Position numbers and translations under genes: made by a program | Source of the DNA: Peribacillus loiseleuriae | Lineage (GTDB): Bacteria; Bacillota; Bacilli; Bacillales; DSM-1321 | Length of the DNA stretch: 64,000 nt | Direction of reading: 5' to 3' | Assembly (NCBI RefSeq): GCF_001183985.1 | Contig: NZ_LFZW01000001.1 | Location: 3,524,059 to 3,588,058, forward strand | The notes under the pieces: generated by a model | The model's input: only the letters and a program-made list of their open reading frames with translations | Told to the model about the DNA's origin: nothing | Databases searched by the model: none | Shown here: positions 43,647 to 64,000 of the stretch, in pieces | Layout: the number at the start of each line of letters is the position of its first letter | Numbering within the stretch: position 1 is the first letter of the stretch

Positions 43647-44575
43647 TATGCTTCGACCTCTTTTCGTCTAAAGTAAACGAGAGCAGCTAAGCTTAAAATA
43701 AGGATGATCACAGCCATAAAAACACCTTGCGTGGCTGCATAACCAGCATCCTGTCTTTTAAAATACAGATCATACATAAACGTTGACATCGATTGCGAGG
43801 CATTTCCTGGTCCTCCACCCGTTAAGGCAATAATTACATCAAATAATTTCAAACCACCGATAATATTGAGCACCATATTAATCGTGATGGATGGCATTAA
43901 CAAAGGGAGGGTAATATTTTTAAATTGCTGAAGGGCAGAGGCACCATCAATTTGCGCTGCTTCATAATAATCTTTTGAGATGCTTTGTAACCCCGCTAAA
44001 TAAATAATCATAGCAACGCCCACATATTGATATGTATTGACAAATACGATGATCCACGTATTCCACTCCGGATTTGCTAATGCATTGATTTTTTCTAAGC
44101 CTAAGAAAAGCAAGACGTCATTCAGTGCTCCACCTTGATAAGCAAAGAAAAAGTACCAAATATATCCCATGATTAACGGACTAATAATAACCGGAAGATA
44201 AATCACCGTTCGGGTAATGGCTTTCATTCGAATGCTTTGATTTAGCAATAACGCATATAATAAGCCAATAATATTTTGCAAAATGGTACTACCCATTCCG
44301 TAAAGTAAGGTATTTTTGACAACGAGCCACGTTGTAGGATCTGTAAACATTCGTTTGTATTGGTCAAAACCTACCCAATCATAACTTTGCGAAAAACCGT
44401 TCCAATTCGTAAACGATAACTGAATCCCATTTAAAAATGGATATAAAATAAACAGAAAAACGATGACCAAGCTTGGTGTGTACATCCACCAAAGAGAAGA
44501 TGGCTTTTTCTCTTTTCGCTTCGGTGCTTTCTTGGCAACGGCTACCTTTCTTCTCGCTACTAGTTCGCTCATCAT
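43646..44575 (-). CDS. Sugar ABC transporter permease (MalF/MsmF-like)
   Basis: 309 residues. Six transmembrane segments and the EAA loop [19 protein letters not shown] basic N-terminal tail ([17 protein letters not shown]) precedes TM1. AAGGAG precedes the ATG. Partner of the permease at 42816 and the binding protein at 44662. Confidence 0.92.
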
Positions 44576-44661
44576 ATCAACTCCTTATTTAGACGCGCTA
44601 AAGCGTTATGGTGGATAAGGGAGTCGCCATCCTTCAATAACTCCCTTATTCATACACGTAG

Positions 44662-45924
44662 CTACTGTTTTCTTAAACGATTATATTCTTCGCCCATTTT
44701 TTTCGATAACTTTTCAGGCGTTAAGCTACCTGAAAGCAATTCTTGACCCGTCGTCCCCATAACATCCCACATGCCACTTGGTAAATACACACGATCAAAG
44801 TAAGGTTGTACATCAATATCCTCAAATTCTTTATAGTATTTAGAGAAATAGTTTTCCGCATCAACAGTCGTTAAAGCATCTGGTGCTGATGTACCTTCAG
44901 CAATCGTTTTAATATTTTCTGGTTGAGCGATAAAATCAAGAAAACGTCTTGCCTCATCCGCATGCTTTGTGTTTTTAAATATCGCTAAAGTATGACGCTC
45001 ACCGCCAATCCAACTTGGCTGATCTCCTTCATGAATCGCAGGTATTGGCATCGTCCCTATTTTTACATCTGGGTTTAATTCGGTTGCATCAGGACCAAGT
45101 GAGCCTGCAACAAACGTGAAAGCAATCTTATTTTGGGCAATTAACTCCGTTGCTTGTTGCAATTGAGCTGTTAAAACATCTTCATTTAACAACCCTTTGT
45201 CTTGCATTTCTTTCATTTTTTCAGCGAGCAGCGTGTAATTATTCCAGTCAAATGTTCCATCTACTAATTGATCGCCATAGCTATTCTTCTGATCGGTAAT
45301 CAGTAATGGTGTCGCAAACTCGTCAAAAATTTGAGCAATATTAGATTTGTCACTACCAGGAATCCATAATGGTGTAACTTCTCCATCGCTTTTTTCTTTA
45401 ACTGTTTCTAAAGCTTCCATAAACTCATCTAACGTTGCCGGTGGTTCAATGCCATACTCGTCTAACACATCAACATTATAGCTAATCCCATCTTTTGCTT
45501 GATTTAATGGAAACGCATACACTTTTCCTTGTTCATCCTTAATAATTTGATTTAGCGCTGGATCAAGATTCGCGACCCAATCCATATCCTTTAAATCGGT
45601 GACATATTCACCATATCGAAGCTGTGACCAGCCATGTGTATCAAATAAATCTGGCATATCATTCGCAGCCATCTTGACACGAAGCATATCTTCATAATCT
45701 CCAGGCGAATTCACTTCAATCTTTATTTTAGGATTTGCCTCTTCGAACTTGGCAACAACACTTGCAAATGCCTTTTTTTCCCCTTCATTATTCATCGATG
45801 AGAAAAGAGATAATGTGATTGTACCGTCCGCTCCACCAGTCTTATTTGATGAACTTCTTGAGCATCCCGAAACAATTAAACTGAAAGCTACTATAAGCAA
45901 GAACATATTCAGATACTTTTTCAT
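44662..45924 (-). CDS. Sugar-binding lipoprotein of ABC transporter (MsmE-like)
   Basis: 420 residues. Lipoprotein signal with lipobox VSGC (residues about 15-21), then a CUT1 solute-binding fold (GTITLSLFSSMNNEGEKKAF; WIGGERHTLAIFKNTKHADE). It should deliver alpha-galactosides to the permease pair downstream. First structural gene of the operon, separated by 313 bases from the LacI regulator. Confidence 0.92.
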   Translation of the reverse strand: MKKYLNMFLLIVAFSLIVSGCSRSSSNKTGGADGTITLSLFSSMNNEGEKKAFASVVAKFEEANPKIKIEVNSPGDYEDMLRVKMAANDMPDLFDTHGWSQLRYGEYVTDLKDMDWVANLDPALNQIIKDEQGKVYAFPLNQAKDGISYNVDVLDEYGIEPPATLDEFMEALETVKEKSDGEVTPLWIPGSDKSNIAQIFDEFATPLLITDQKNSYGDQLVDGTFDWNNYTLLAEKMKEMQDKGLLNEDVLTAQLQQATELIAQNKIAFTFVAGSLGPDATELNPDVKIGTMPIPAIHEGDQPSWIGGERHTLAIFKNTKHADEARRFLDFIAQPENIKTIAEGTSAPDALTTVDAENYFSKYYKEFEDIDVQPYFDRVYLPSGMWDVMGTTGQELLSGSLTPEKLSKKMGEEYNRLRKQ

Positions 45925-48241: not shown

Positions 48242-49384
48242 TTAAGCGAATTTTTGTTGCTTCGGTTCTTCGATTACATTCATATATTGCCAAAGTAATT
48301 GTTCAAATATCGTATCCCATTTTTGCGAGACCGCATACTTTCTTCCTTCTATCCCCATCTGATCCCGTACTTGAACATGATGAATAAGGTGCAAAATCGA
48401 ATCGGTAAATGCCTGCGCATTCCCTGACTGGCATAAATATCCAGTTATCCCTTCTTGAATAATATGTTTTACCCCGCCTGCATTCGCGCAAATGACGGGA
48501 GTGCCGCTTGCAAGAGCTTCAAGAACCACATTGCCAAATGTTTCGGTTGAAGAAGGAAAAACAAATACATCTGATGCAGCATAAATCTCCGCTAATTTTT
48601 CATCTCTTAAATAGCCAGTAAACATCATGTTTTCGGGAGCTTCATTTTCAAGCTCTTCACGCATCGGACCATCTCCTATGATTACCCATTGAATGTACTC
48701 ATTTATGTAAGCTGGAATTGATTTTGCGATGGCAAGGAGGGTTTTTACATCTTTCTCAGGAGCTAATCTGCCTACATACGTAAGCAAGTATTTTTTTTGA
48801 ATGCCATATTGCTTGCGTACCGCTTTTTTTTCATAATAAGGGTGATAAAGATTGCAATCGACACCTCTACCCCAAAGCTCCAAATTCTTGAACCCATGAC
48901 GTTTTAAGTGTTCTAGCGTATCATTTGATGGCACAAAGATTTTTTTAAACGGTCGATGAAACCAATTCATATATCGCCAAAGCAGTTTAGAGAGAAATTC
49001 CATGTTATAAAATTGTAAGTAATGATCAAAATCGGTATGATAGGAGCCGACTAATGGAATGTTTAATTTTTTTGCATAATATGCACCACAAAGCCCAATA
49101 TTAAATGGAGTTGCGACATGAATCAAATCTGGAGAGAAATCCTGTAATTCTGATTTGACTTGACTTAGATTGGGAAAAGCCAAACGACATTCAGGATATA
49201 AGAAAAAAGACAGACTTTTAAAACGGTGTATATGACTAGTTACATACTCATCCGATTGTGATTTAGGCGCAAAGATTTTAAAAGAAATATTCTGTTTCCC
49301 TAAATAATCCGTAAATCGTTTCAGCGTACGGGCCACGCCATTTATATCTGGATCAAAGGTATCTGTGAAAATGGCAATCTTCAT
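48242..49384 (-). CDS. Glycosyltransferase family 4
   Basis: 380 residues, GT-B fold. N-terminal MKIAIFTDTFDPDINGVART is typical of diacylglycerol/phosphatidylinositol glycosyltransferases and related GT4 enzymes. The EX7E motif is in SSTETFGNVVLEALASGTPV. GGAGGA precedes the ATG at 49384. With the UDP-glucose dehydrogenase and PAP2 genes upstream, a UDP-glucuronate-using lipid or wall glycosyltransferase is plausible; donor and acceptor are not proven. Confidence 0.9.
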   Translation of the reverse strand: MKIAIFTDTFDPDINGVARTLKRFTDYLGKQNISFKIFAPKSQSDEYVTSHIHRFKSLSFFLYPECRLAFPNLSQVKSELQDFSPDLIHVATPFNIGLCGAYYAKKLNIPLVGSYHTDFDHYLQFYNMEFLSKLLWRYMNWFHRPFKKIFVPSNDTLEHLKRHGFKNLELWGRGVDCNLYHPYYEKKAVRKQYGIQKKYLLTYVGRLAPEKDVKTLLAIAKSIPAYINEYIQWVIIGDGPMREELENEAPENMMFTGYLRDEKLAEIYAASDVFVFPSSTETFGNVVLEALASGTPVICANAGGVKHIIQEGITGYLCQSGNAQAFTDSILHLIHHVQVRDQMGIEGRKYAVSQKWDTIFEQLLWQYMNVIEEPKQQKFA

Positions 49385-49466
49385 GAGATTCCTCCTCATT
49401 AGAAAAGCATAAGAACCGATTCAAGACAAGGATAATTACGTATGTTTCTTCCCTCTCGGCACCGCA

Positions 49467-49997
49467 TTACACACTTAGTAAGTAATAGCAAAGACTTCCA
49501 ATGCATGACCCAAGTACGACACCAGCCAAAACATCTGAAGGATAATGAAGGCCTAAGTAGATCCGTGATAAGCCTACAAGCATGCCTAAAGGAAGTAAGA
49601 TGAATGCAATTACTGGTATAAAAAGGACATTAGGAATAATAACTGAAAAAATCGACGTTGTATGACCGGAAGGAAACGAATGGTCTTGTAACGGATTCGC
49701 ATGAAAATTTGTTTTTTCTATGATTAAATACGGTCTTTTTCTTGGGAAAATCTTCTTGACAATATGAACCGGTATATGACTTACTGCTAAAGCTAGTGCG
49801 CTGGAAATAGCCGTCATTCTCGACGGACCTGTCTGGATGATGATCAGAATCAGCACAGTCGCGATTGTACATGTAGCTCCGCCTAAATGTGTAATATTTC
49901 TGAAAAATAAATTTAAATGTTTGTTGTTAAAGTGGCGATTTACTTTCTGTAATAATCGACATTCGAAGTCATAAAAGGTAAGTAACATTCTTTCCAT
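49467..49997 (-). CDS. PAP2-family membrane phosphatase
   Basis: 176 residues with five to six membrane segments and all three motifs: KKIFPRKRPYL, PSGHTTSIFS and SRIYLGLHYPSDVLAG. Members dephosphorylate undecaprenyl pyrophosphate, phosphatidic acid or phosphatidylglycerol phosphate. It sits 12 bases after ugd and before a GT4 gene, so it may supply or recycle the lipid acceptor of that pathway. Confidence 0.92.
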   Translation of the reverse strand: MERMLLTFYDFECRLLQKVNRHFNNKHLNLFFRNITHLGGATCTIATVLILIIIQTGPSRMTAISSALALAVSHIPVHIVKKIFPRKRPYLIIEKTNFHANPLQDHSFPSGHTTSIFSVIIPNVLFIPVIAFILLPLGMLVGLSRIYLGLHYPSDVLAGVVLGSCIGSLCYYLLSV

Positions 49998-50009
49998 GGT
50001 CTGCCTCCA

Positions 50010-51341
50010 TTAATAGGTCTCGCTTTTCTTATAATCATTTGTAACAATCGGTCTACCTATCGAAATATAGGTAATTCGGTGTTTGCGAATTTCTTTGAGA
50101 GAATAACAATTTCGCCCATCGATGACAATTGGTTTCTTCATATATAACTCGAAAAAATCTAATGGAATTTGCTTAATTTCTTCCCACTCTGTCGCAATGA
50201 TGGCTACGTCCGCATGGAGTAGCGCATGCCGAATGTCCTGGGTATACTCGATTGTGTTTCCTAAAACTTGTAGCGCATTTGACATCGCAATCGGGTCAAA
50301 TGCTGTAATGATTGCCCCCTCTTTCAATAATTCCTTGATAATGCTCAAAGAAGCTGCTTGCCGAACATCATCTGTATTCGGCTTAAACGACAGGCCGAGC
50401 AGCGTTACCTTCTTGCTCTTTAGTGATCCGATTACTTCCTTTGCCTTTGAAACTGGGAGTGATGCTTGACGATTGTTCACTTCAATAACAGCCTTTAAAA
50501 GATCAAATGAGTGTTGATTATTTCCAGCGAGCTGAACAAGTGCTTTCGTATCTTTTGGAAAACAAGACCCTCCATAGCCAATGCCCGCTTGAAGAAAATA
50601 AGGACCAATTCGTTGATCTTTGCCAATCCCATTTGTTACTTCTTCTATATTTGCACCAACCTTCTCACAAATCATGGCAATTTCATTGATAAAACTAATT
50701 TTTGTTGCCAGAAAAGCATTGGCGGCATATTTAATCATTTCTGCACTTTTTAGATCTGTTTTTATTATCGGAATGTCTAGCGGAAGATAGATTTGTTCAA
50801 TAATAGCTGCTGCTTTTGAACAATCCGTACCAATTACAATACGATCTCCGTAAAAAAAATCGACCACTGCAGATCCTTCTCTAAGAAACTCAGGATTGGC
50901 GACCACTTCTGCATGGAGATTTGCAGGTTTATGACGATGAATAATCTCGCTTATTTGATCGTTTGTTCCAACAGGTACGGTGCTCTTTGTACAAACAATG
51001 ACATCATTCTTCATGAACTGGGCAATCGAATGGGCGACCTCACGCACGTATGCTAAATTCGCCGTGCCATCTTGTTGCTCTGGCGTCCCTACCGCAATAA
51101 AAATAATCTCAGCATTTCCATAGGCATATTGTGAGTTGGTTGTAAAATGCAATCTGCCACACGCCACATTTTTTTCAAGTAGATCTTCTACCCCCGGTTC
51201 ATAAATCGGCGAACGGCCGGATTGTAACATGGCAATCTTCTCTTCTTGAATGTCTGAGCATATCACCTGATGACCCAATTCAGCTAAACAAACACCCGTA
51301 ACCAGCCCGACATAACCAGTTCCAGCAATGGTAATATTCAT
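50010..51341 (-). CDS. ugd: UDP-glucose 6-dehydrogenase
   Basis: 443 residues. NAD-binding ITIAGTGYVGLVTGVCLAEL, central NEFINEIA-type segment (FINEIAMICEKVGANIEEV) and catalytic cysteine in GIGYGGSCFPKDTKAL; C-terminal KVTLLGLSFKPNTDDVRQA. Makes UDP-glucuronate. GGGGGGATTGG precedes the ATG. First gene of the ugd-PAP2-GT4 set. It belongs to the TuaD/Ugd group; no teichuronic acid genes are adjacent. Confidence 0.95.
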   Translation of the reverse strand: MNITIAGTGYVGLVTGVCLAELGHQVICSDIQEEKIAMLQSGRSPIYEPGVEDLLEKNVACGRLHFTTNSQYAYGNAEIIFIAVGTPEQQDGTANLAYVREVAHSIAQFMKNDVIVCTKSTVPVGTNDQISEIIHRHKPANLHAEVVANPEFLREGSAVVDFFYGDRIVIGTDCSKAAAIIEQIYLPLDIPIIKTDLKSAEMIKYAANAFLATKISFINEIAMICEKVGANIEEVTNGIGKDQRIGPYFLQAGIGYGGSCFPKDTKALVQLAGNNQHSFDLLKAVIEVNNRQASLPVSKAKEVIGSLKSKKVTLLGLSFKPNTDDVRQAASLSIIKELLKEGAIITAFDPIAMSNALQVLGNTIEYTQDIRHALLHADVAIIATEWEEIKQIPLDFFELYMKKPIVIDGRNCYSLKEIRKHRITYISIGRPIVTNDYKKSETY

Positions 51342-52412: not shown

Positions 52413-53603
52413 TCATTTAATGTTTGACGCCCCCCATTTTCGATTGCCAATAAGATAGATGATCAAAATGAGAATCATGAAAATGGCAGAGTAACTGAAA
52501 GTCATCCCGTAGCCGACAAAGCCAACGATGCTTCCTAGCCCAATAGAGCCAACTGCCATTCCAAGATCCATAAAAATTAACAGCATGGAATTAGCTGTCG
52601 CATTTTTTTCCTGTGGGACGAGGCTTAAGGCCAAAGCTTGAATGGTTGGCTGAATGACTGCATAAGCGACTCCAAAAAAGAAACCACTAACCAAAACCAA
52701 GCCAATATGATGGGATATCCCTAACAAGATTAAGCCAATCGCACCCGATATAGTCGCTGGTATCATTAAAATTTTATGACCGAACCGGTCGAAGATTTTC
52801 CCTGAAAAGATTCTGACGATAATCATCGTAATCGCTTGTACAGTGAAAAACTGAGAAATACTGCCGCCAATATGAGTCTCCTTCCCTAGTGCTCCCATAA
52901 AGTTCACGGTTCCTGCGATCGCCATATAGTTTAAGGAGACAATGATACTTGGAAGAAATACGCGACGATCAAACATATATTTGTAGAATGGCTCACTAGA
53001 CGTTTTCTTTTTAACAGGCTTCTCTTTTTTGATTTTTTTGATAAATAAGCTACCAACAAATGAAAGAAGTACAAGAGTAAATATAACAAGTAGCAACATG
53101 TTAAAGGAAAAACGACCGAGAAGGAATATCGCCAGCATGTTTCCCACTGTCAAGCCAATGCTCGTTGCCATGGCAAAAAATACAAGCCCTTCCCCTAAAC
53201 GTGAACTTGGTACAAGACTGCTCGATAATGTAAAAAGTAACACCGTGGTAATCGAAAAGCCAACCCCTTGAAGGACACGAATGAAAAGCAAATATCCGAT
53301 AGAATCATTTAGAAAGCTTAAACCGATCGTTCCCATGAAGTACACAAGCGAAATTAGCAACAGCACTTTCATATTCAGTTTTTGAATAAGAATTCCTGAC
53401 GCAAAGCGGGTGACAAGAGACGCTATCATAAAAGCCGTCGTCATCGACCCAGCTAAAGCTGGATTTTTACTAATCTCTGTAATATGTATCGAAAACCCGG
53501 CTGTCAGCATATAAAAGCCGATAAATAGAATCAGTGTCGATAGGACAATTGTTATGTATTGCCTCGTCCATAATTTTTCTTTTCCAGCTTTCATTATCAC
53601 CAT
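52413..53603 (-). CDS. MFS transporter (drug-efflux type)
   Basis: 396 residues, 12 membrane segments with a central basic loop (KKIKKEKPVKKKTSSEP). Related in layout to the MFS gene at 35854 (RVLQGVGFSITTVLLFTLSS). The start is the ATG at 53603 or an in-frame ATG 9 bases later, near AAAGGAAATGGTGAT. No regulator adjacent. Substrate unknown. Confidence 0.87.
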   Translation of the reverse strand: MVIMKAGKEKLWTRQYITIVLSTLILFIGFYMLTAGFSIHITEISKNPALAGSMTTAFMIASLVTRFASGILIQKLNMKVLLLISLVYFMGTIGLSFLNDSIGYLLFIRVLQGVGFSITTVLLFTLSSSLVPSSRLGEGLVFFAMATSIGLTVGNMLAIFLLGRFSFNMLLLVIFTLVLLSFVGSLFIKKIKKEKPVKKKTSSEPFYKYMFDRRVFLPSIIVSLNYMAIAGTVNFMGALGKETHIGGSISQFFTVQAITMIIVRIFSGKIFDRFGHKILMIPATISGAIGLILLGISHHIGLVLVSGFFFGVAYAVIQPTIQALALSLVPQEKNATANSMLLIFMDLGMAVGSIGLGSIVGFVGYGMTFSYSAIFMILILIIYLIGNRKWGASNIK

Positions 53604-53743: not shown

Positions 53744-53776
53744 CGAAAAAAAGAAAGCTCCATCAATAGCTTTCTT
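53744..53776 (-). terminator. Terminator of the ROK-ABC-lyase operon
   Basis: Minus-strand AAGAAAGCT-ATTGATGG-AGCTTTCTT followed by TTTTTCG. Confidence 0.85.
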
Positions 53777-53798
53777 CCCATCATTGTTAGACGTCATA

Positions 53799-55283
53799 TT
53801 AATAGGCCAATAAAGCCTGCCTCTTTTCGTTCAATTCTCTAACGATTTTCTCATATTCCGCTAACTGTTGCTTCAGCTGATTCTTTCTATTCCCAATCAT
53901 CCGCATTACTTCTTTCGGATTCGGGCCACCTTGAATCTTTCTAATTCCCACAAAATATTCAGGTGAGATGATTTTCTGCCATTCTGCTTCGGTAATTTGC
54001 ACCGAAACAAATTCAGCAATGATCTTGTTGATGTCTTGTGTGTCCCAGTCATATAACTCCTTCCGTTCACAAATCGATTGTTTGGCGATGTGACTAGCTA
54101 TGGAATGAGCTTTTCTAAACGGGATTCCATAATCACGAGAAAGCGTATCGGCTAATTCTGTTACTGTGATACTTGATTTGGCAGCCATTTTCTTTGCATG
54201 CTCTTCATTTACTTTTAACGTAGCAATGACGGCATACATTAGTTTCATCACGCGACTTGCGTTTGTAAAGGCGCGATATAAATGTGGCTGTAGGTCATCT
54301 TCTGTATCGACGATGTCGCCAAATGGCGTATTATGAATCATCTGAATCGCACTAAGCGCGTCCCCATAACTACTACTGGCAATTGAGCGGGAATGTTCAA
54401 TCGAAACAGGATTTCTTTTTTGCGGCATGATGCTGCTCACTTGTACATACGGATCGGCCACATAAAAGGTGCCAAACTCTCTTGTCACATGTTGCAAGAA
54501 ATCTTGTATCCATCTGCCGGTATTCACCATGCACGTCATCAGTGCTGTTGCTGTTTCGATTAAATAATCCGCTCCGGCAATCGAATCATAAGAGTTTTCA
54601 ACAATCTCATCAAAACCGAGCAGTTCAGCGGTACGATTGCGACTAATGGGAAAACCCGTTGTCGTCAAAGCAGCCGCTCCTAGCGGAGATTGGTTCACCG
54701 TTTTATAGGCAGCCCAGAACCGGCCGACATCTCTTTGCAACACATCATAAATCGCTAGAAAATAATGACCTAATGTTGTCGGCTGTGCTGGTTGTGTATG
54801 CGTATACCCAGTGATATACGTTTCAGTATGCTTTTCTGCCTGCACCAATAATGATTCGCTCAATTGATTGGCATAGCCGATGAATTGCAGAAGATGGCCC
54901 CGCAAAACGAGCCGATACATCGCAACGCCCATATCATTCCGGCTACGACCGATATGAATCTTGCCTGCCAACTCATCTCCAATTTCTTCACCAATCTTTG
55001 CTTCCATCATGAAAAATAAATCTTCAAATTGCGGCTGGTAGGATACTAAAGTCAGATCTGTTTGTGCCACCTTCCGAATGCCAGCCAACATCGTATTGGC
55101 TTCCTCCACTTTAATGATTTTCTGTTCACAAAGCATAATCACATGGGCCCGATGAATATCAAACATGACATGAAATAAGTAATCTCGTTGATCATTAAAA
55201 ACCGGCTTTAACAACTCTTCAACATAGGTTTTCCCCGGAAATACACGGCCTTCATTTTTGATAAATTCATCCAACTTGCTCAT
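53799..55283 (-). CDS. Argininosuccinate-lyase-family enzyme
   Basis: 494 residues, fumarase/aspartase superfamily. Conserved parts are KIHIGRSRNDMGVAMYRL, GYTHTQPAQPTTLGHYFL, LGAAALTTTGFPISR and the signature SSIMPQKRNPVS. Compared with canonical ArgH (GSSxMPQKKNPD) the residues flanking the signature differ (V before SSIM, V after NP), and the protein is somewhat longer. No argG is near. It closes an ABC-importer operon, so it may cleave an imported C-N-linked succinyl compound, as EDDS lyase does, rather than make arginine. Substrate unknown. Confidence 0.85.
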   Translation of the reverse strand: MSKLDEFIKNEGRVFPGKTYVEELLKPVFNDQRDYLFHVMFDIHRAHVIMLCEQKIIKVEEANTMLAGIRKVAQTDLTLVSYQPQFEDLFFMMEAKIGEEIGDELAGKIHIGRSRNDMGVAMYRLVLRGHLLQFIGYANQLSESLLVQAEKHTETYITGYTHTQPAQPTTLGHYFLAIYDVLQRDVGRFWAAYKTVNQSPLGAAALTTTGFPISRNRTAELLGFDEIVENSYDSIAGADYLIETATALMTCMVNTGRWIQDFLQHVTREFGTFYVADPYVQVSSIMPQKRNPVSIEHSRSIASSSYGDALSAIQMIHNTPFGDIVDTEDDLQPHLYRAFTNASRVMKLMYAVIATLKVNEEHAKKMAAKSSITVTELADTLSRDYGIPFRKAHSIASHIAKQSICERKELYDWDTQDINKIIAEFVSVQITEAEWQKIISPEYFVGIRKIQGGPNPKEVMRMIGNRKNQLKQQLAEYEKIVRELNEKRQALLAY

Positions 55284-55297
55284 TTTTACACCACCAT

Positions 55298-56998
55298 TTA
55301 TAAGGCTTTTTCAGCTTTAATTCCAAAAAATTTGTTCGAAATAAAGAGGACTATCACAATCAACGTAATCTGAATCATCCCGTAAGCAGCAGCCTGCCCC
55401 ATATTGAACATGCGAAGCTGGTTCATAATTTCAATCGATATGGGTCGGTTTGAAATCGTATACAATAAGACAGACGTTGGAAATTCGCCAACCGATTCAA
55501 TAAACGCTAATAATGTCCCTGATAAAACACCAGGCATAATAATTGGCAAAATCACTTTTCTAAACGTATAAAACCACTTGGCTCCTAAATTTCTCGCTGC
55601 CTCCTCAATGGAATCATCCAACTGTTCTAACACTGCGTTCGTCGAGCGGACAACGAGCGGAATATGCCGGATGAAATAGGCAAGCGGCAAAATCCAATAT
55701 GTGCCAACTAATATTTGACCGAAAGAAAAAACGCTCGGCTCATTAAAAGCGAAAACTAAATTCATCCCAATAACAGTCGCCGGCAATGCCCACGGAATCA
55801 TGACGAGAATATCAACGAAGCTTTTGCCAACAAATTTTCGTTTTACCAACACATAAGAAGCGATTACACCAAAAACCAAGTTTCCTACCGTAGCAATTAC
55901 AGCCATGATTAAGCTGTTTTTTAACGGCTTGAATATATTTGGGTCCGCAAACAAAAGCCGATAATTCTCAACATTAAATACCGACGGGTACGTTTGCCAC
56001 GTCCATGTCCCATCTGGTACAAGTGAAAGCAACAAGATCGTAAAATGCGGCAAAAGTAAAACCAATACGCCAATCATACCAAAGCCAACCATCACCCACT
56101 TCAGCAGTGGATTTTTCACTTCACTCCTGTGTGCACCAATTCCTTTTGTAGCCATTCGATAATCTTTCCGATTTTGATACCAACGCATAAATAATAGAAA
56201 GGAAATTGAAACAATCGAGAGTATGACCGATTGTGTCGCAGCAATTTCCATATCGCCATTAATTTTCGAGAAATAAATTTGTAGACTCAAAACCCGATAT
56301 CCACCCGCTAATAGAAACGGAGCACTGAATGAAGCCATTGAGATCATAAATACAAGCAATGACGCAGCAACGATGGCAGGTGTTAATAATGGCAATGTCA
56401 CCTTCCAAAACACTTTGAACTTATTTGCCCCTAAATTGTAAGCCGCCTCTTCTAAAGAAGGGTCGATTTTATTAATCGCGGCTGATACCGTCATATAGAA
56501 ATACACATACATCGTATAGGCATGCACAATCAAAATTCCGGAAACGCCGCCAATTTTAAAAGGGACTTTTTCCAGACCAAACAAATCTTTCATCGCGTTC
56601 GGAATCATTCCAGATTCCCCATACAAAAACATAAATGCCATTACACCGACTAGTGATGGTAGAACGATTGGCAAAATTGCGGCCGTTGAAAAGAAACTTC
56701 GACCCGGAAAATCGTAACGGTTAAAAATAATCGCCAGTGGAATCCCGATTAAGGCACTAACGAATACACTCAAAATCGAAATATACACCGAGTTCCATAA
56801 AGCTTCTAAGTTGGTTTTCGATTCCTGCACGAAAAAGTCCTGATAATTTCCGAATGAAATCGCCCCGTCTTTTTGTAAGCTTTCAAAAAAGGTTCGTAAA
56901 GACGGATAAAGAACATAGGCGACGAGCACGAATACGACTGGGATTAGAAGCCAAATCGTTAATCTCGTATCACGGTTTTTAATCATTGGCATCACCAC
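55298..56998 (-). CDS. Fused double ABC permease (FbpB/AfuB type)
   Basis: 566 residues, two binding-protein-dependent permease domains in tandem (about 1-270 and 290-566), each with an EAA loop: SLEEAAYNLGANKFKVFWKV and SIEEAARNLGAKWFYTFRKV. This fused form is typical of iron, phosphonate or hexose-phosphate importers. It overlaps the ATPase gene by 20 bp. The true start may be an ATG 6 or 12 bases downstream of the GTG at 56998. Confidence 0.9.
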   Translation of the reverse strand: MVMPMIKNRDTRLTIWLLIPVVFVLVAYVLYPSLRTFFESLQKDGAISFGNYQDFFVQESKTNLEALWNSVYISILSVFVSALIGIPLAIIFNRYDFPGRSFFSTAAILPIVLPSLVGVMAFMFLYGESGMIPNAMKDLFGLEKVPFKIGGVSGILIVHAYTMYVYFYMTVSAAINKIDPSLEEAAYNLGANKFKVFWKVTLPLLTPAIVAASLLVFMISMASFSAPFLLAGGYRVLSLQIYFSKINGDMEIAATQSVILSIVSISFLLFMRWYQNRKDYRMATKGIGAHRSEVKNPLLKWVMVGFGMIGVLVLLLPHFTILLLSLVPDGTWTWQTYPSVFNVENYRLLFADPNIFKPLKNSLIMAVIATVGNLVFGVIASYVLVKRKFVGKSFVDILVMIPWALPATVIGMNLVFAFNEPSVFSFGQILVGTYWILPLAYFIRHIPLVVRSTNAVLEQLDDSIEEAARNLGAKWFYTFRKVILPIIMPGVLSGTLLAFIESVGEFPTSVLLYTISNRPISIEIMNQLRMFNMGQAAAYGMIQITLIVIVLFISNKFFGIKAEKAL

Positions 56999-58085
56999 TT
57001 ATGACAGGAATCAGGCGGAGTTGTTTTTCAGGAAGTTCTACATACACGTCCTTCCCTTGATAAAAATAGCCGAATTCATGGGTATTCAACACATCCACCC
57101 GTAATGTTACATGTCCAACTTGTACCAGCACATTAACAATCGATCCAAAAAATTGCACAGCTTCTATTTTCCCCTTTAAAACATTCGTTTGATCTTCAGC
57201 AGTATCGAGAATTCGAATGGCTTCAGGACGAATGGAAACAGCCAAATCCCCTTTATTTAACTCGCCTTCATTCGCGTGATTATGGACAATAAGTTTTACT
57301 GGTTCGCCATCATTTTTTAACGTAACCGCTATATTCTCTTGTTCGACACGATTGACTTGAACAGGCAATAGATTAATTTCTCCGATAAAACTTGCTACGA
57401 AATCATTGGCAGGCTGGTTATAAATTTCTGCAGGTGTCCCAACTTGATGACATACCCCATAATTGAAAACAGCTATCCGATCACTCATCGATAACGCCTC
57501 TGCCTGATCATGTGTCACATAAATGGTCGTAATCTTATAATCCCGCTGCAGCCGTAAAATCTCTGCTCTCATTTCATCGCGAAGCTTAGCATCTAAATTA
57601 CTTAACGGCTCATCCAACAAGAGGATTTCCGGTTCGATAACGAGTGCTCTGGCCAAAGCTACCCGCTGCTGTTGTCCGCCACTCAACTGGCTCACTTGTC
57701 GATTCGAATAATTCTCTAGTCTCACTTTACGTAGCACTTCCAGTACCTTGCCTTTTACATCAGCAGCTGAAACCTTTCGCACACGCAAGCCAAATGCTAC
57801 ATTTTCAAACACCGTCATGTGAGGAAAAAGAGCATAGTTTTGAAAAACCATGCCCGTATTCCGTTTCTCAGGAGGTACTCGCGTCATATCTCTTTCGCCA
57901 AAGCGGACGACACCTTTTGTTGGATAATAAAACCCAGCGATCATTCGAAGGGTTGTCGTTTTCCCACAACCACTTGGTCCTAAAAAGGTGAAGAACTCGC
58001 CGTCTTTAATATCTAGATTCAAGTGATTGACAGCTATCGTTTTGCCGAAGGCTTTTTGGACATTCTCTATTTGTATCGACGCCAT
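56979..58085 (-). CDS. ABC transporter ATP-binding protein (PotA/FbpC type)
   Basis: About 368 residues. Walker A GPSGCGKTTTLRMIAG, Q-loop FQNYALFPHM, signature LSGGQQQRVALARAL, Walker B ILLLDEPLSNLD, His switch YVTHDQAEALSM, and a C-terminal TOBE domain (SIRPEAIRI). Powers the fused permease. ATG at 58085, 14 bases after the binding-protein stop. Confidence 0.93.
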   Translation of the reverse strand: MASIQIENVQKAFGKTIAVNHLNLDIKDGEFFTFLGPSGCGKTTTLRMIAGFYYPTKGVVRFGERDMTRVPPEKRNTGMVFQNYALFPHMTVFENVAFGLRVRKVSAADVKGKVLEVLRKVRLENYSNRQVSQLSGGQQQRVALARALVIEPEILLLDEPLSNLDAKLRDEMRAEILRLQRDYKITTIYVTHDQAEALSMSDRIAVFNYGVCHQVGTPAEIYNQPANDFVASFIGEINLLPVQVNRVEQENIAVTLKNDGEPVKLIVHNHANEGELNKGDLAVSIRPEAIRILDTAEDQTNVLKGKIEAVQFFGSIVNVLVQVGHVTLRVDVLNTHEFGYFYQGKDVYVELPEKQLRLIPVISGDAND

Positions 58086-58099
58086 CAAAACGCACTTCC

Positions 58100-59191
58100 T
58101 TATTCTTTAATTTCTTTATTTCCGCTTTTAATATTTTCATCCCAATATTTCATCCATTCATCGCCTTTTTCTTGGAAAACGTTCCAGTCAATATCCATCG
58201 CTTTAATTTCTGTATTCGTGATCCAGTCAGGTAAGTCCGTCACATCACTTCTTGTCGGAATTCGATAAAATTCCTCTGCTAAGATTTTCGCAGCTTCTGG
58301 TGTATTGACAAACTCATAAAAGGCCTCTGCTGCTTTTGGATGCTTGGCTCCTTCAACAATCGCAATTCCTTCAGTCAACACCGGTGTCCCACTTTCAGGG
58401 ATGACAAACTCAAACGGATAATTTTTATTTTCCTTCAACATCACGACATCTGGCATCGCCCAAACAGACAGTGAACCTTCTCCTTTGGCCACTTTGTTAT
58501 ACATCATTTCTGGGTTAGCTGAATATTCTTTCGTGTTTTGGTCGAGCTTCGTCAACCAATCATAGCCTGCTTTTGGATCATTCGTGTCTTTATACGTACG
58601 ATAAATCATCGAAGAAAAAATCGTTCTCATCGTTCCTGATGCAAGCGGATAGCGGATGATAATTTCATCTTTCCACTTCGGATCAAGCAACTCATCCCAA
58701 TCTTTCGGAACTTCGTCTTTTGAAAGCTTTTTGCTGTTATACATGATGACTTCAGGCGTCTGGCTCGTACCTGTCCAATACCAATCTGGATCACGGAATC
58801 CTTCATCAAGACTAGTAGAATAAGTAGGTTGATAGGCAGCTAACAGACCATCGTCCTTTGCTTGGTTAAAGTTCGTGGAAGGGGCTCCCCACCAAACATC
58901 GGCCTGTGGATTATTCTTCTCTGATCGCACACGGTCAAGAATTTCCTGAGAGCCCATATCCAGCCACTCTACATCAATGTTATATTTTTCTTCAAATTGC
59001 TTCTCAAACTTGGATAATATGTCTTTTCCATGTGGTGAATACACGACAATCTTATCTTCCAACGCATTTTTTTCTTCCTTTGCACCGTCTGCATTCGAAT
59101 TTGTCTTCGTATTTGTATTACTACATCCAGAAATCAATAACGCTGCAGATAATGTCAACACGGAAACAATTGACTTTTTCTTATTTTTCAT
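58100..59191 (-). CDS. ABC solute-binding lipoprotein (FbpA/PotD-like)
   Basis: 363 residues. Lipobox LISGC (residues about 19-23), then an extracellular-binding-protein family 1 fold (KIVVYSPHGKDILSKFEKQF; ADVWWGAPSTNFNQAKDDGL). The adjacent tyrosines that bind Fe in FbpA are not evident, so iron is less likely than an organic substrate. Its start overlaps the ROK stop by four bases (ATGA), so the two are coupled. GAGGGGGA precedes the ATG. Confidence 0.88.
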   Translation of the reverse strand: MKNKKKSIVSVLTLSAALLISGCSNTNTKTNSNADGAKEEKNALEDKIVVYSPHGKDILSKFEKQFEEKYNIDVEWLDMGSQEILDRVRSEKNNPQADVWWGAPSTNFNQAKDDGLLAAYQPTYSTSLDEGFRDPDWYWTGTSQTPEVIMYNSKKLSKDEVPKDWDELLDPKWKDEIIIRYPLASGTMRTIFSSMIYRTYKDTNDPKAGYDWLTKLDQNTKEYSANPEMMYNKVAKGEGSLSVWAMPDVVMLKENKNYPFEFVIPESGTPVLTEGIAIVEGAKHPKAAEAFYEFVNTPEAAKILAEEFYRIPTRSDVTDLPDWITNTEIKAMDIDWNVFQEKGDEWMKYWDENIKSGNKEIKE

Positions 59192-60417
59192 AAAAAATCC
59201 CCCTCATCATGAACATTCAAAATGCTCTCATGTTCTCTCAAAAATAGTGATACCGCTCCTAAGACGCCTGCGTTTTCTCCAAGCCTTGAAGTTGTTATTT
59301 CTACTAGACTTGGCAGATAAGGTTCTACAATCTCTTGAATTCTAGGTAAAATGTATGCAGCTGAATGTAATACACCACCTCCTAAAATAACAATCTCTGG
59401 ATTTAGTAAACTTGTAGCATTGACAATTGCGTACGCCAAATGTTCAAGCGCTTCATCAATAACCGCAGTCGCTAGAATGTCTCCTTTTTTTGCAAACCAA
59501 AAAGCTTCTTCGCCTACTAATTCAGAGGACTTCGCCTGTTCATATAATGCATGCTCAGGGTCATTTTGGACAGCTCTGGTAAAATGTGCGCCAATCGACT
59601 TCCCTCCAGCGACACTTTCCAAATAGCCATATCTGTGGAAAATCGGCTTAAATTCACGTTTCATCTCGTCTTTGTTCGTCACCATATAGCCAATTTCTCC
59701 AGCTGCACTTGATGCCCCTCTATATAATTGGTTATTCAAGATGATACCGCTGCCAATTCCTGTGCCAACCGCAATAAACAGCACATTTCGTTTATTCTTT
59801 GCGTTCCCCAACCACTGTTCACCAAGTGCAGCCGCATTCACATCATTGTCGACATAAATCGGAAAATCAAAGTAGCGTCTTGCTTCTGCTATAAACGGAT
59901 ATTGAATCCATCCTAAGCTCGGAGCCTCAATCACTAAGCCGCTTTTCGTTTGAGTGATCCCGGGAATACCTACGCCCATTCCTAAAATCCGCTCTTTCGC
60001 AATCTGATTCTTGGTAATCAATCGATCCGTTTCAAGCGCCATTTGCTTAAGGAGGCCGGATTGCAAATACGTAGTTGTTGAAAAACTCGTTTCAGCAAGA
60101 ATGTTGCCATTTAAGTCACATAGCACGATTTTTACATTCGTCCCACCAATATCTGCTCCGATGATAAAAGCTTTTCGTTCATTAAAGAATAGCTGAATCG
60201 GTCGCCTCCCACCTTGGGAAGAGGATTCACCGCTTCCTTTCTCGACGACCCATTTTTCATAGATGAGTTCATCTACAAGTTGAGAAACAGTCGGTTTGCT
60301 GAGACCAAGCTTAACCGCTATCTCAGCTCTTGAGATCGGCGAACAATCTTTTATACATTGAATAATTCTTTTTTTATTAACGAATTTTAGATGACTGGGT
60401 GTTCGTTTAAAACTCAT
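59188..60417 (-). CDS. ROK-family transcriptional repressor (XylR/NagC-like)
   Basis: About 409 residues. Winged HTH (about 20-65; SRAEIAVKLGLSKPTVSQLV) and ROK sugar-kinase-like domain (IGADIGGTNVKIVLCDLNG; YVDNDVNAAALGEQWLG; VAVGTGIGSGIILNNQLYRG). The usual zinc motif CxCGxxGCxE is missing; the equivalent region reads FHRYGYLESVAGG. The Asp of DND is kept. It heads the ABC-lyase operon and is divergent from the PIG-L gene. Two palindromes in the divergent region are probable operators. Effector likely a sugar or amino sugar. Confidence 0.9.
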   Translation of the reverse strand: MSFKRTPSHLKFVNKKRIIQCIKDCSPISRAEIAVKLGLSKPTVSQLVDELIYEKWVVEKGSGESSSQGGRRPIQLFFNERKAFIIGADIGGTNVKIVLCDLNGNILAETSFSTTTYLQSGLLKQMALETDRLITKNQIAKERILGMGVGIPGITQTKSGLVIEAPSLGWIQYPFIAEARRYFDFPIYVDNDVNAAALGEQWLGNAKNKRNVLFIAVGTGIGSGIILNNQLYRGASSAAGEIGYMVTNKDEMKREFKPIFHRYGYLESVAGGKSIGAHFTRAVQNDPEHALYEQAKSSELVGEEAFWFAKKGDILATAVIDEALEHLAYAIVNATSLLNPEIVILGGGVLHSAAYILPRIQEIVEPYLPSLVEITTSRLGENAGVLGAVSLFLREHESILNVHDEGDFL

Positions 60418-60436
60418 CACATCACGGCCTTACCTG

Positions 60437-60467
60437 TTTAGTTAGTCAATCTACCTAATTAACTAAA
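60437..60467. promoter_or_regulatory. Candidate ROK operator 1
   Basis: TTTAGTTA - 15 bases - TAACTAAA, the architecture of XylR-type operators, 20 bases upstream of the ROK start. Confidence 0.65.
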
Positions 60468-60603
60468 ATATACCTTATTAGGATAATATGAACAAGTTAT
60501 TTTTTAATTATTTTAAATATTCGGTTTTTAATAGTTATTAAGTATCATTTACAATTATAACCAAGCGTGCTATTTATTTAGATAAGCTTTTTTTATCCAG
60601 TTC

Positions 60604-60622
60604 GTTAGGTAATATTACTAAC
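60604..60622. promoter_or_regulatory. Candidate ROK operator 2
   Basis: GTTAGGTAATATTACTAAC, a near-perfect 19-bp palindrome about 55 bases upstream of the PIG-L gene. It shares the GTTAG/CTAAC theme with operator 1. Confidence 0.55.
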
Positions 60623-60676
60623 CTACTAGGCATAGACTTCAAAGAAGCTTAACTAAAATCGAAAGGGGTTACAAGT

Positions 60677-63184
60677 ATGAAAAAGGTTTTAATCACTTGG
60701 CTTTCTCTCGTGATCGTATTTTCACTCGTACCGATCACAGGTAGTGCAAACGAACCGAACAAACCAGATGTGGCGTTGTGGAATGCAGTCAAACCGCTTG
60801 AAACGACCGTTACATTCTTAAACAGTGGCGCTCATCCTGATGATGAACGCAGCGATTTTCTCGCCTTTTTATCGAGGGGATTAGGTGTAAAAACATCAAG
60901 TCTGATCGCCAACCGCGGGGAAGGCGGACAAAATGAAATCGGCAATGAACTGGATAATGCTCTCGGAATTATCCGCTCTAGAGAAATGATTGAAGCAGCC
61001 AAAATTACCGGAGTAAAAGCTTATCATCTTAGTGAAACAACCTCTGATCCGATTTATGATTTCGGCTTTTCGAAAACATCTGCAGAAACATTAGCAAAAT
61101 GGGGCGAAGATTTAACGTATGAACGGGTGATTCGCTTTATCCGTACATATCAGCCCGATATTTTGATGCCATCCTTTCAAGATGATGATACCCAGCATGG
61201 CCATCATCGTACCATGACGATTTTAAGTGAACGAGCTTTTAAAGATGCAGCAGATCCAAAAATTTTCCCACAACAATTGAAACAAGGACTATCGGTATGG
61301 CAAGTGAAAAAGTTATACCTACCTGTTTCCACTAAAGAGCAAGCGACTACATCTATCGAAATTGGTGCCTTTGACCCCATATATGGCATGACCTATCCAC
61401 AACTAGGCGAACAATCACGTTATATGCACAAAAGCCAAGGAATGGGCTCTGATATCCCAGCAGCACCTCGCCAAGTTCATTTAGAATTGAAACAAACTGC
61501 TGTTGACACAAAAGGCAAGTCAGACCTATTTGCCGGAGTTCCTTATAATTTTACCGAGTGGTCTGCTAAACTGCCAAGCTCAGCGTCAAAATTAAGGACT
61601 GAATTCATAAATGTGCAGCGAAATTTGAACGCGGTTGTTGCCGCCTATCCAAATGAACATCATGTCTTCACAACATCACAAACCGCACTGTCTGATGTAA
61701 GGTCACTTACAGCACAAATAAAGAAGGCAAGGCTTGGCAATGAGTTGGAAAATGATTTACTCCACAAGCTTTCCTTAAAAGAAGAACAGTTACAAACTGT
61801 CAGTTATGTCTCTTCAGGCTTAGACGTTCAAGCAAAAGCAGCTTCTACCATCCTTACAAAAGAGCAAAAAACAAGCGCAACCGTTACCGTGAAGAATACA
61901 GGTGAGCAAACGTTGAAAAAAGTCACAGCTTCATTGGATACGCCAAAAGGCTGGAAAGCAAAAACAAAATCGAAAGCAATCAATCTAGCGCCCAATCAAT
62001 CAACGACCATTACCTACGAGATTGACGTGCCAAAAGATGCAGACTATTATCACGCCTATCATGAACCAGCACTTACAACAATCATTTCTTATGAATTCGG
62101 GAATACTAAAACAACAGTAATCGAGGAATTAGAAGGCACCGTCGCTGTTCTACCAGATGTCAGTCTCACCCTTTCTCCTGAAGACATCGTCGTCAACACC
62201 GCAGACAGGCAAAAAGAAATACCAGTGACCGTCACGGTGAAAAATTATCGAGATGGAAAAACATCCGCTAACATTGCTTTACACACACCAAAGGATTGGA
62301 AAGTTTCTCCTAGCAAATCAACCGTTTCATTTACGAAAAAATCAGAAGAAAAGCAAGTGAAGTTCACTGTTACACCACCGAAAACGATTCAAGATGGGAA
62401 GTATACGCTAACAGCTCAAGCTACGGTCAATGGAAAAACATTCAATTCGACAATTCAAGAAATTTCCTATGACCACATCGGAACGTTCTATTATCAATAT
62501 CCAGCTGCAATCAACACCGTTGCATTTGAGCTATTAAAGCCAGCCTCATTAAAAGTTGGCTATATTGAAAGCGGATTCGACAAAGTAGCCGATTACTTAA
62601 GTAACGCAGGTCTTACTATTACGAAACTGACAGCAACAGATTTAGCATCCGGTGACTTAAGTCAATACGATACGATTGTGACCGGCATTCGCGCTTACTT
62701 GTCACGCGAAGATTTAAAAGCAAATAATGCTCGCTTACTGCAATATGTAGAAAATGGCGGACATCTTGTTGTGCAATATCACAAACCTGGAGATGGATGG
62801 GATGAAAAAACGACGGCTCCCTATCCACTTACAATTGGCAATCCATCGATTAAATGGAGAGTGACCGATGAAAAGGCTGCAGTCAACGTCCTAAAACCAG
62901 AATCAGCGCTTTTCAACTACCCGAACAAAATCACAACAAAAGATTGGGACAATTGGGTGCAAGAAAGAGGATTATACTTCCCAATGAAGTGGGATCCACA
63001 CTTTGAAACATTCATTTCCATGGCCGATCCAAATGAAGAACCATTTGATAGTGGCATCCTGATGGCACAATACGGCAAAGGGACCTATCTCTACACCAAT
63101 CTTGTCCTCTACCGCCAAATCCAAAGCCAAGTGCCAGGCGGATATCGGATTTTGACAAACTTGATTAGTTACGGAGCGGAATAA
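60677..63184 (+). CDS. Secreted PIG-L deacetylase with NEW3-like and ThuA-like domains
   Basis: 835 residues. Signal peptide (about 1-24; ITWLSLVIVFSLVPITGSA). PIG-L/LmbE deacetylase domain (about 45-230) with zinc ligands in SGAHPDDERSDF and the His of DTQHGHHRTMT. Two NEW3-type beta-sandwich repeats (about 385-480, TVTVKNTGEQTLKKVTASLD; about 500-600, VTVTVKNYRDGKTSANIALH). C-terminal glutamine-amidotransferase/ThuA-like domain (about 620-835; YDTIVTGIRAYLS, GGHLVVQYHKPGDGW). AAAGGGG precedes the ATG. It probably removes N-acetyl groups from extracellular amino sugars. Confidence 0.88.
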   Translation: MKKVLITWLSLVIVFSLVPITGSANEPNKPDVALWNAVKPLETTVTFLNSGAHPDDERSDFLAFLSRGLGVKTSSLIANRGEGGQNEIGNELDNALGIIRSREMIEAAKITGVKAYHLSETTSDPIYDFGFSKTSAETLAKWGEDLTYERVIRFIRTYQPDILMPSFQDDDTQHGHHRTMTILSERAFKDAADPKIFPQQLKQGLSVWQVKKLYLPVSTKEQATTSIEIGAFDPIYGMTYPQLGEQSRYMHKSQGMGSDIPAAPRQVHLELKQTAVDTKGKSDLFAGVPYNFTEWSAKLPSSASKLRTEFINVQRNLNAVVAAYPNEHHVFTTSQTALSDVRSLTAQIKKARLGNELENDLLHKLSLKEEQLQTVSYVSSGLDVQAKAASTILTKEQKTSATVTVKNTGEQTLKKVTASLDTPKGWKAKTKSKAINLAPNQSTTITYEIDVPKDADYYHAYHEPALTTIISYEFGNTKTTVIEELEGTVAVLPDVSLTLSPEDIVVNTADRQKEIPVTVTVKNYRDGKTSANIALHTPKDWKVSPSKSTVSFTKKSEEKQVKFTVTPPKTIQDGKYTLTAQATVNGKTFNSTIQEISYDHIGTFYYQYPAAINTVAFELLKPASLKVGYIESGFDKVADYLSNAGLTITKLTATDLASGDLSQYDTIVTGIRAYLSREDLKANNARLLQYVENGGHLVVQYHKPGDGWDEKTTAPYPLTIGNPSIKWRVTDEKAAVNVLKPESALFNYPNKITTKDWDNWVQERGLYFPMKWDPHFETFISMADPNEEPFDSGILMAQYGKGTYLYTNLVLYRQIQSQVPGGYRILTNLISYGAE

Positions 63185-63420
63185 ATACATGAATAAGCCT
63201 ATGCATGCGTGATGTGTGCATAGGCTTATTGTTAGGTCGGGACCGACATGAAGCTGAGGCAATGTTTTCATGACTGGCGCTTAATATTAACTTTAGGCGT
63301 GGTAATTCATTAAATCATTAATCTAAATTTAGGAAGTCAAGACTAAAAATGACACTAGTTAGTTATGAAGTTATTTCAAAAACCGATAGATAAGGTGAGC
63401 GTATCAATAACTTTTCAATA
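63185..63420. other. Intergenic region between convergent genes
   Basis: Contains the hairpin at 63192-63230 and otherwise nothing recognisable. Confidence 0.5.
63192..63230. terminator. Hairpin after the PIG-L gene
   Basis: AATAAGCCTATGCA…TGCATAGGCTTATT, a perfect 14-bp stem; weak T-tract (TTATTGTTA). Confidence 0.75.
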
Positions 63421-64000
63421 TTAATCATTTTCCAAGCCTTCTAATCGCTTTTTAACTTCATGTAATGATGGCATTCCTCGCTGAGCTCCTAGTCTCTCCA
63501 CAGAAAGTGATGCTGAAGCATTTGCAAATTGGATGGCCTCTTTAAATGCGAAGCCTTTACTTATTGCAAAACCAAATGAACCATTAAAAGTATCACCAGC
63601 ACCCGTTGTATCGGTAACTGTTGTCTTATATCCATCAACTTGAACAACCTCTGAACCATTGTAATAGGTTGCTCCCGCTTCCCCTTGTGTAACAATTAAT
63701 TTATTGGGAAATTCCTTCAAAATCTCCTCCGAATATTCTCCAAATAATTCAATACATTCCGTCTCATTAGGTGTTATATAGGTTGCCATATCAATCATTT
63801 TCTTTGTACACGAAGACGCTGGTGCTGGATTTAATAGAACTGGGACGTTTTGTTCATGACAAATGTTAAGTACTTCTTCTACCGTCTCTGATAAAATTTC
63901 CAATTGAACAATGACAATATCACTGCTCGCTAAAAGTGCTTTGACATGTTGGACATTTGAAGGAGTTAAATTGTAATTGGCACCTGGGACGACAATAATA
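63421..64000 (-). CDS. Ribokinase-family (PfkB) sugar kinase, 5' end outside window
   Basis: The frame is open to the window edge, so only the C-terminal ~193 residues are present. PfkB signatures: LLNPAPA, ITPNETECIELFG, LIVTQGEAGATYYNG, and the catalytic TDTTGAGDTFNGSFGFAIS. The upstream part (VVPGANYNLTPSNVQHVKAL) matches ribokinase (GANA-type motif). An internal TTG at 63903 is not the real start. Likely ribokinase; probably part of an rbs-type locus beyond the window. Confidence 0.88.
   Translation of the reverse strand, partial: IIVVPGANYNLTPSNVQHVKALLASSDIVIVQLEILSETVEEVLNICHEQNVPVLLNPAPASSCTKKMIDMATYITPNETECIELFGEYSEEILKEFPNKLIVTQGEAGATYYNGSEVVQVDGYKTTVTDTTGAGDTFNGSFGFAISKGFAFKEAIQFANASASLSVERLGAQRGMPSLHEVKKRLEGLEND

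Follow-up and report, generated by a model that had tools for sequence, protein, structure and literature searches.

We have analysed a 64-kb stretch (the window) of the 5.43-Mb genome of Peribacillus loiseleuriae, in which the gene of a PIG-L N-deacylase stands divergent to genes for a ROK-family regulator, an ABC importer and a lyase of the argininosuccinate lyase (ASL) superfamily. We think it probable that this locus serves the catabolism of glucosamine-malate compounds under ROK control, with bacillithiol and its fragments N-acetylglucosamine-malate (GlcNAc-Mal) and glucosamine-malate (GlcN-Mal) as the most likely substrates, an assignment drawn wholly from gene context and residue patterns. 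Bacillithiol (BSH) is Cys-GlcN-malate, and GlcN-malate is to our knowledge the only widespread natural conjugate of glucosamine with a C4 dicarboxylate that an ASL-superfamily enzyme could cleave. Many Firmicutes have bacillithiol as their major small thiol (PMC4360819). The locus comprises the following genes:

60677..63184, plus strand: PIG-L N-deacylase (open reading frame (ORF) list; Pfam PIG-L 53 bits, NPCBM_assoc 74 bits)
59188..60420, minus strand: ROK-family transcriptional regulator of 410 aa with helix-turn-helix (HTH) and ROK domain (Pfam ROK 188 bits, HTH_24)
58100..59191, minus strand: lipoprotein solute-binding protein (SBP) (Pfam SBP; lipobox by eye)
56979..58088, minus strand: ABC transporter ATPase with TOBE_2 domain (Pfam ABC and TOBE)
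55298..56998, minus strand: fused two-domain ABC permease (two BPD_transp_1 stretches, Pfam)
53799..55283, minus strand: ASL-superfamily lyase of 494 aa, proposed glucosamine-malate (malyl-glucosaminide) lyase (Pfam Lyase_1 and ASL_C2)

Results and Discussion

The gene set is conserved around the lyase

An earlier note on this DNA had described a PIG-L gene facing a tightly packed ROK, importer and lyase operon, and both the ORFs and the Pfam matches bear this out. The minus-strand operon has the order ROK–SBP–ATPase–permease–lyase; ROK and SBP overlap by 4 bp and ATPase and permease by 20 bp, and there are gaps of 11 bp (SBP–ATPase) and 14 bp (permease–lyase). The closest named model for the lyase is PRK06705/NF005218 (‘argininosuccinate lyase’; 620 bits over residues 5–484), yet this score lies under the cut-off of 883, and the name of the model gives no tested substrate. 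Scanning an order-wide sample of 397 genomes, among them the one that holds the window, with PRK06705 gave 89 places in 88 genomes at 324–666 bits, the next best scoring 250.

Sixty of these 89 places (L039–L098) were compiled together with the best 80 of at least 577 confirmed stretches, which lean towards the window's kin (L099–L178), with L179–L198 (18 of the 19 additional places that 61 genomes of one family gave, and 2 of the 3 clostridial ones that 148 genomes gave), and with 20 among the 60 matches listed, picked for low scores and variety (L199–L218). These 180 loci (L039–L218) overlap in part, as the same genome may come from two sources, and removal of identical lyase cores and of L211 and L212, in which no lyase was called, left a set of 162. 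All five partners (PIG-L, ROK, SBP, ATPase and permease) lie at most seven genes from the lyase in 33 of the 60 order-sample neighbourhoods, and none does in 11. Around 20 ArgH genes, taken as controls from the next-scoring places of the order-wide scan and treated with the same profiles and thresholds (one region being shorter, 11.6 kb), no partner was found in any neighbourhood. Thus the association, whose absence the earlier note had named as speaking against its proposal, is conserved in related genomes. In the 162 loci the genes near the lyase encode ROK proteins (97), the permease (89), a large PIG-L (86), the SBP (86), a BadF kinase (35), the SBP of a CUT1 sugar importer (31), Amidohydro_2 (19), a small PIG-L (15), creatininase-family (14) and desulfidase-type (4) proteins and NagB (2). 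Judged by the lyase, the nearest named relatives among the matches listed are mostly Peribacillus. Like Peribacillus and Neobacillus, three records that bear the names Paenibacillus sp. FJAT-29882 (L099), Sporosarcina globispora (L109) and Chryseobacterium sp. ISL-80 (L110) carry lyases 78–91% identical to that of the window; these records are perhaps misnamed.

The lyase is not an argininosuccinate lyase

The ArgH cut-off (TIGR00838) is passed by three genes of the genome, at 680, 595 and, for the window lyase, 337 bits. That the lyase might be the only ArgH of this genome, which the earlier note had considered as a way in which it could be wrong, is therefore rejected, as two genes elsewhere score far higher. 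The 595-bit gene (G000:C1:582992-584275, L002) lies beside the 680-bit one, so that the genome has a duplicated ArgH. In a phylogenetic tree 62 lyases of the window type form one side and 22 ArgH together with EDDS lyase the other, with a support of 98/85, or 100/99 without the outlier L210; EDDS lyase sits on a very long branch, so that its placement on the ArgH side is unsure.

The catalytic and fumarate-side residues S114, R115, N116, T161, H162, S283, S284, K289, N291 and E296 are invariant in all 62 lyases, which likewise all show the catalytic features of ArgH, namely the serine loop SSxMPQKxN, the histidine of YTH and Glu296. The arginine-side signature YNKDxQEDK, present in 22/22 ArgH, occurs in 0/62 lyases and is typically replaced by [FY]GDI[VN]DTEDDxQP, and where the 22 ArgH and EDDS lyase have an aspartate after K-N-P, V, S or I stands in 62/62. 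As the fumarate side is kept and the arginine-side signature lost, this pattern would fit the release of fumarate with a different, perhaps uncharged, leaving group. The window lyase is not ArgH: it shares with ArgH the superfamily, the catalytic and fumarate-side residues and probably the release of fumarate, but it lacks YNKDxQEDK and the aspartate of KKNPD, belongs to a separate clade and stands in a sugar-catabolic neighbourhood.

The analogy to EDDS lyase (6g3d) drawn in the earlier note holds at the level of the superfamily only. Both are superfamily members, EDDS lyase acts on fumarate adducts, and it matches the window lyase about as well as Thermus ArgH does (211.6 vs 214.7 bits), whereas the two lie apart, if unsurely, in the tree and differ in their substrate-side residues. 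According to an excerpt of PMC12363623, Gln159, Asp290 and Tyr320 of EDDS lyase lie near the substrate; the lyases have His (62/62), V/S/I (62/62) and Ile (60/62) at these positions, and EDDS lyase itself is a C–N lyase for aminopolycarboxylates. In L209 (8252-9756) and L096 (8908-10319) the lyase is present as two overlapping ORFs, owing to a frameshift or sequencing error.

Links to glucosamine and bacillithiol

In several separate lineages the lyase has genes of glucosamine catabolism at its side. NagB (glucosamine-6-phosphate deaminase; TIGR00502 above cut-off) follows the lyase on the same strand in L085, after a gap of 85 bp, and in Tepidibacillus L118, with an overlap of 4 bp, the two lyases being located on different branches of the tree; a partial NagB match of 171 bits at the edge of L148 was left out of the counts. 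The alphaproteobacterium Paroceanicella has an operon of the order SBP–MalF–MalG–lyase–ABC ATPase–ROK protein–NagB. SIS proteins with NagB-II among their matches (under cut-off) follow in clostridial L198 and in Roseomonas, the one of L198 scoring somewhat higher against GlmS than against NagB-II. Sugar kinases are found as well: the nearest solved relative of the BadF kinase of L157, the sole one searched, is a MurNAc/GlcNAc kinase (162 bits), PfkB-type kinases are present at the locus in Aminobacter, Thalassospira, Roseinatronobacter and Deinococcus deserti, a ‘carbohydrate kinase’ is annotated there in two further Deinococcus, and ROK-type kinases occur in Roseomonas and Clostridia.

A connection to bacillithiol is suggested by BshB2, the bacillithiol deacetylase/amidase. 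A Sporosarcina metagenome-assembled genome (L152) carries DUF1806, BshB2, a CUT1 importer and the lyase in one run, and in the Paenibacillales L209 and L213 BshB2 is the next annotated gene on the same strand, about 0.5 and 0.4 kb past the lyase. The small PIG-Ls of these three loci are above the TIGR04000 cut-off, and since each genome has another BshB2 above cut-off elsewhere, the local copies look dedicated to the locus. Among Paenibacillus and Brevibacillus operons ending in a small PIG-L, both that were scanned (L157, L170) match BshB2 best, with 117–118 bits, under the cut-off. The window's genome also encodes BshC and BshB2. No match to BshC was found in three Clostridia and Tepidibacillus that carry the lyase (assemblies of unstated completeness), so these are probably non-makers of bacillithiol. 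In the three Clostridia one run comprises a ROK protein of kinase size, a CUT1 importer, Amidohydro_2, SDH_alpha, a ROK regulator and the lyase. For the SDH_alpha protein of L169, all relatives of solved structure at E≤0.01 are L-cysteine desulfidase (96 bits, over nearly the whole length), and the same holds for an L214 gene that stands divergent to the SBP.

PIG-L enzyme, importer and regulator

The window PIG-L (LmbE/CE14) has 835 aa, and its metal motifs AHPDDE (52–57) and HGHH (174–177, of the HxxH type and within HGHHR) of Pfam PF02585 are invariant in 25 aligned PIG-L sequences. Of the architecture proposed in the earlier note, the signal peptide (Sec-like, at the N terminus, by eye) and the NEW3-like part (two stretches in Pfam) were recovered, while the ThuA-like domain was rejected as unsupported, as Pfam gave no match at E≤0.001 and hhalign with one real ThuA protein a probability of 3.5%. 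The best NCBIfam model is Mca with 36 bits, far under its cut-off, TIGR04000 for BshB2/Bca did not match at E≤0.001, and a profile of the large PIG-L found LnmX among solved structures with 35 bits, all other matches having E>0.05. The enzyme thus belongs to the same Pfam family (LmbE/PIG-L) as BshB/Bca and MshB/Mca, which act on N-acylglucosamine cores, but differs from them by its size, secretion signal, NEW3 and a C-terminal part of no assigned fold, besides the low score to Mca. Activity on such cores is ascribed to LmbE/PIG-L enzymes in a part of the review PMC4101496. Deacetylation outside the cell, as the earlier note had it, agrees with the signal of the window enzyme but is not general: of four N termini read, the large PIG-Ls L239 and L248 (Alphaproteobacteria) and L249 (Deinococcus) have no signal peptide and only L250 has one, and some related loci have a small PIG-L instead of one with the architecture of the large type. 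Where the PIG-L is small or signal-less, deacylation may take place inside the cell.

The nearest solved relatives of the SBP are an iron(III) transport binding protein (117 bits) and a pyridoxal-phosphate-binding protein (109 bits), and its best NCBIfam model is PhnS2 (115 bits, under cut-off). In several lineages a CUT1 carbohydrate importer replaces this importer type. ROK-controlled amino-sugar catabolic operons of the NagC type, as we know them, resemble the locus in their ROK regulator and, for the related loci, in a sugar kinase and NagB or NagB-II, whereas here an ASL-superfamily lyase takes the place of the glycosidase and the importer is of a PhnS/AfuA-like type.

The ROK protein has both features of its family, the HTH and the ROK domain, and the operator-like palindromes that the earlier note saw near both starts are indeed present, as is a terminator-like stem:

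60605..60621: palindrome resembling an operator, TTAGGTAATATTACTAA, upstream of the start of PIG-L (sequence)
60437..60467: inverted repeat resembling an operator, TTTAGTTA ... TAACTAAA, a short way upstream of the start of ROK (sequence)
53746..53776, minus strand: intrinsic-terminator-like 9-bp stem and T-run directly 3' of the lyase (sequence)

The pattern TTAGY-N(8-24)-RCTAA was found in 51 of 59 ROK/PIG-L intergenic regions (58 loci, some near-identical, and the window), compared to a mean of 3.7 and a maximum of 10 in mononucleotide shuffles. Because the palindromes are kept across these regions, the PIG-L gene probably belongs to the ROK regulon.

Neighbouring genes

A major facilitator superfamily (MFS) gene (52413-53603) was rejected as an operon member, as the stem at 53776-53746 intervenes after the lyase, so that this gene is probably outside the operon. 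Scans with promoter and terminator consensus sequences stayed at shuffle level (25 vs 25.3 and 9 vs 8.5), and the stem is not among the terminator matches. A broken ribokinase at 63421-63903 was likewise rejected, as the gene merely crosses the window edge and is whole beyond it. From there (window 63421-64000, L256 1480-6405) the ribokinase-like gene is followed by nucleoside-hydrolase-like, PfkB-like and 705-aa ADP-ribosylglycohydrolase-like genes (by eye), perhaps a catabolic set for nucleosides or ADP-ribose. On the other side, genes for a glycosyltransferase, a PAP2-like protein (by eye) and a UDP-glucose dehydrogenase of the TuaD kind at 48242-51341 may form a set for teichuronic acid or a glycolipid, and at 41453-45924 four adjoining genes match a sugar ABC importer plus an enzyme in size (ORF list only). 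In L179 (10475-11686) a gene of the YedE/FdhT type for sulfur or selenium transport follows the lyase (506 bits); a gene of the same size is present in L180–L182 and a similar sequence in L153.

Proposed pathway and alternatives

In the pathway we propose, of which we infer the order of steps, the place of deacylation, the bond cleaved, the repression and the inducer, the PIG-L enzyme would remove the N-acyl group (acetyl, or cysteine as Mca and Bca do) from the glucosamine nitrogen of GlcNAc-Mal or Cys-GlcN-Mal outside the cell, and the ABC importer would then take up the dianionic GlcN-malate. The lyase would eliminate the malate moiety as fumarate by β-elimination and free glucosamine, which would be phosphorylated and then deaminated by NagB to fructose-6-phosphate, with the fumarate entering the tricarboxylic acid cycle. 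The ROK protein would keep the two transcripts repressed as long as no sugar or sugar phosphate is present, and creatininase or Amidohydro_2 proteins might, as a guess, serve as an additional amide hydrolase. The earlier note had imagined an extracellular N-acetylated or succinylated compound that is deacetylated, imported and cleaved; the conserved unit of uptake and cleavage is in line with a course of N-deacylation, import and cleavage with release of fumarate, but ‘succinylated’ is too vague, as the context indicates glucosamine-malate. It had also known of no described pathway with this gene set, and in the open-access literature searched we found neither an account of the set nor one of bacillithiol as a nutrient or of feeding on glucosamine-malate.

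Several observations weigh against a glucosamine-malate pathway. In 23 of the 162 loci no partner is near the lyase (ATPases disregarded), a BadF kinase, NagB or small PIG-L lies within seven genes in 8 of the 60 order-sample loci only, and NagB is near the lyase in just two of the 162 loci and one plasmid record. The window operon is without a kinase, NagB, BshB2 or any other glucosamine-specific gene, NagB being encoded elsewhere in the genome. BshB2 is above cut-off at three loci only, in two of them 0.4–0.5 kb from the lyase, the secreted window PIG-L is distant from BshB and Mca (36 bits), and the nearest solved relatives of the SBP include no disaccharide binder. The creatininase-family and Amidohydro_2 genes (14 and 19 of 162 loci) lack an explanation, proteins about 30% identical to the desulfidase-type protein of L169 are annotated as L-serine ammonia-lyase, and we know of no ASL-superfamily enzyme acting on an O-glycoside. 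Moreover, the lyases of L047, L050 and L051 stand near a ROK protein and genes of the GH13 α-glucosidase family, and that of L093 beside ThuA and genes that by eye resemble sugar dehydrogenases, so that some of the clade may act on different substrates. L050 also holds maltose-acetyltransferase-like and nucleoside-hydrolase-like genes.

It is rather unlikely, in our view, that the lyase instead acts on an N-(1,2-dicarboxyethyl) amino sugar, such as an aspartate-derived glycation product, and cuts its C–N bond to give fumarate and glucosamine or a related amino sugar, without bacillithiol being involved. A glucosamine-catabolic context would fit this equally well, most superfamily members known to us cut C–N bonds, and we do not know the cluster-bearing Alphaproteobacteria as bacillithiol makers; yet it explains neither BshB2 at three loci, nor the PIG-L deacylase near 86 of 162 lyases, nor the clostridial desulfidase-type gene, and the acidic residue of ArgH and of the amine-releasing EDDS lyase is missing in 62/62 lyases. 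That the cell recycles bacillithiol that it has made itself, or S-conjugates of it, instead of using outside compounds seems quite improbable to us. The window's genome does have BshC and BshB2, and the BshB2-type BA3888 acts as an S-conjugate amidase according to an excerpt of PMC4360819, but the core of the locus is an importer with, here, a signal-bearing PIG-L, and the three Clostridia and Tepidibacillus have the lyase with no BshC match (in assemblies of unstated completeness).

We consider a catabolism of aminopolycarboxylates or metallophores in the style of EDDS lyase very improbable, even though EDDS lyase and Thermus ArgH are about equal in score to the window lyase: EDDS lyase falls, if unsurely on its long branch, on the ArgH side of the tree, has Gln and Asp where all 62 lyases have His162 and V/S/I, and such a pathway would leave the sugar kinases, NagB and the sugar importers without explanation. 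That the lyase is a divergent ArgH which stands in an amino-acid locus with incidental neighbours is disfavoured as extremely unlikely: its 337 bits exceed the TIGR00838 cut-off, but the genome has two ArgH genes that score better, the arginine-side signature is lost and the conserved context is not one of arginine.

Spread beyond Bacillota

Using tblastn, 41 plasmid records with lyase relatives of 31–40% identity were found, of which 16 were examined for the following counts. KRNPV and HN[TV]P[FY][GT]D[IM] are common to 13 of the 16, and in all 13 an SBP and two sugar-type permeases are beside or near the lyase, with a PIG-L in seven, a sugar kinase in the same run in seven (so annotated, or a kinase-sized ROK protein) and a deaminase in two. 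In the stretches shown of the three records without this signature, from Haladaptatus, Haloarcula and Agrobacterium vitis, no CUT1 importer, PIG-L, sugar kinase or deaminase was found, and the A. vitis stretch has other ABC transporter genes. Similar gene sets are present in Alphaproteobacteria and Deinococcus. In 12 of the 13 signature-bearing records the lyase is annotated as argininosuccinate lyase, argH or plain ‘lyase family protein’.

Conclusion

In summary, a glucosamine-malate pathway is the reading we favour for the locus. We see it as evenly balanced whether, more broadly, Bacillota, Deinococcota and Pseudomonadota take apart Cys-GlcN-malate completely as a shared nutrient, with a new type of enzyme, a lyase of the fumarase/ASL superfamily, breaking the glycosidic bond so that the malate aglycone leaves as fumarate. 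As the clostridial run carries a probable cysteine desulfidase, Clostridia without a BshC match could consume all three parts of bacillithiol. If the reading is true, a number of database genes named argH are misnamed, and a lyase that attacks a glycoside at its aglycone would bring chemistry new to the ASL superfamily.

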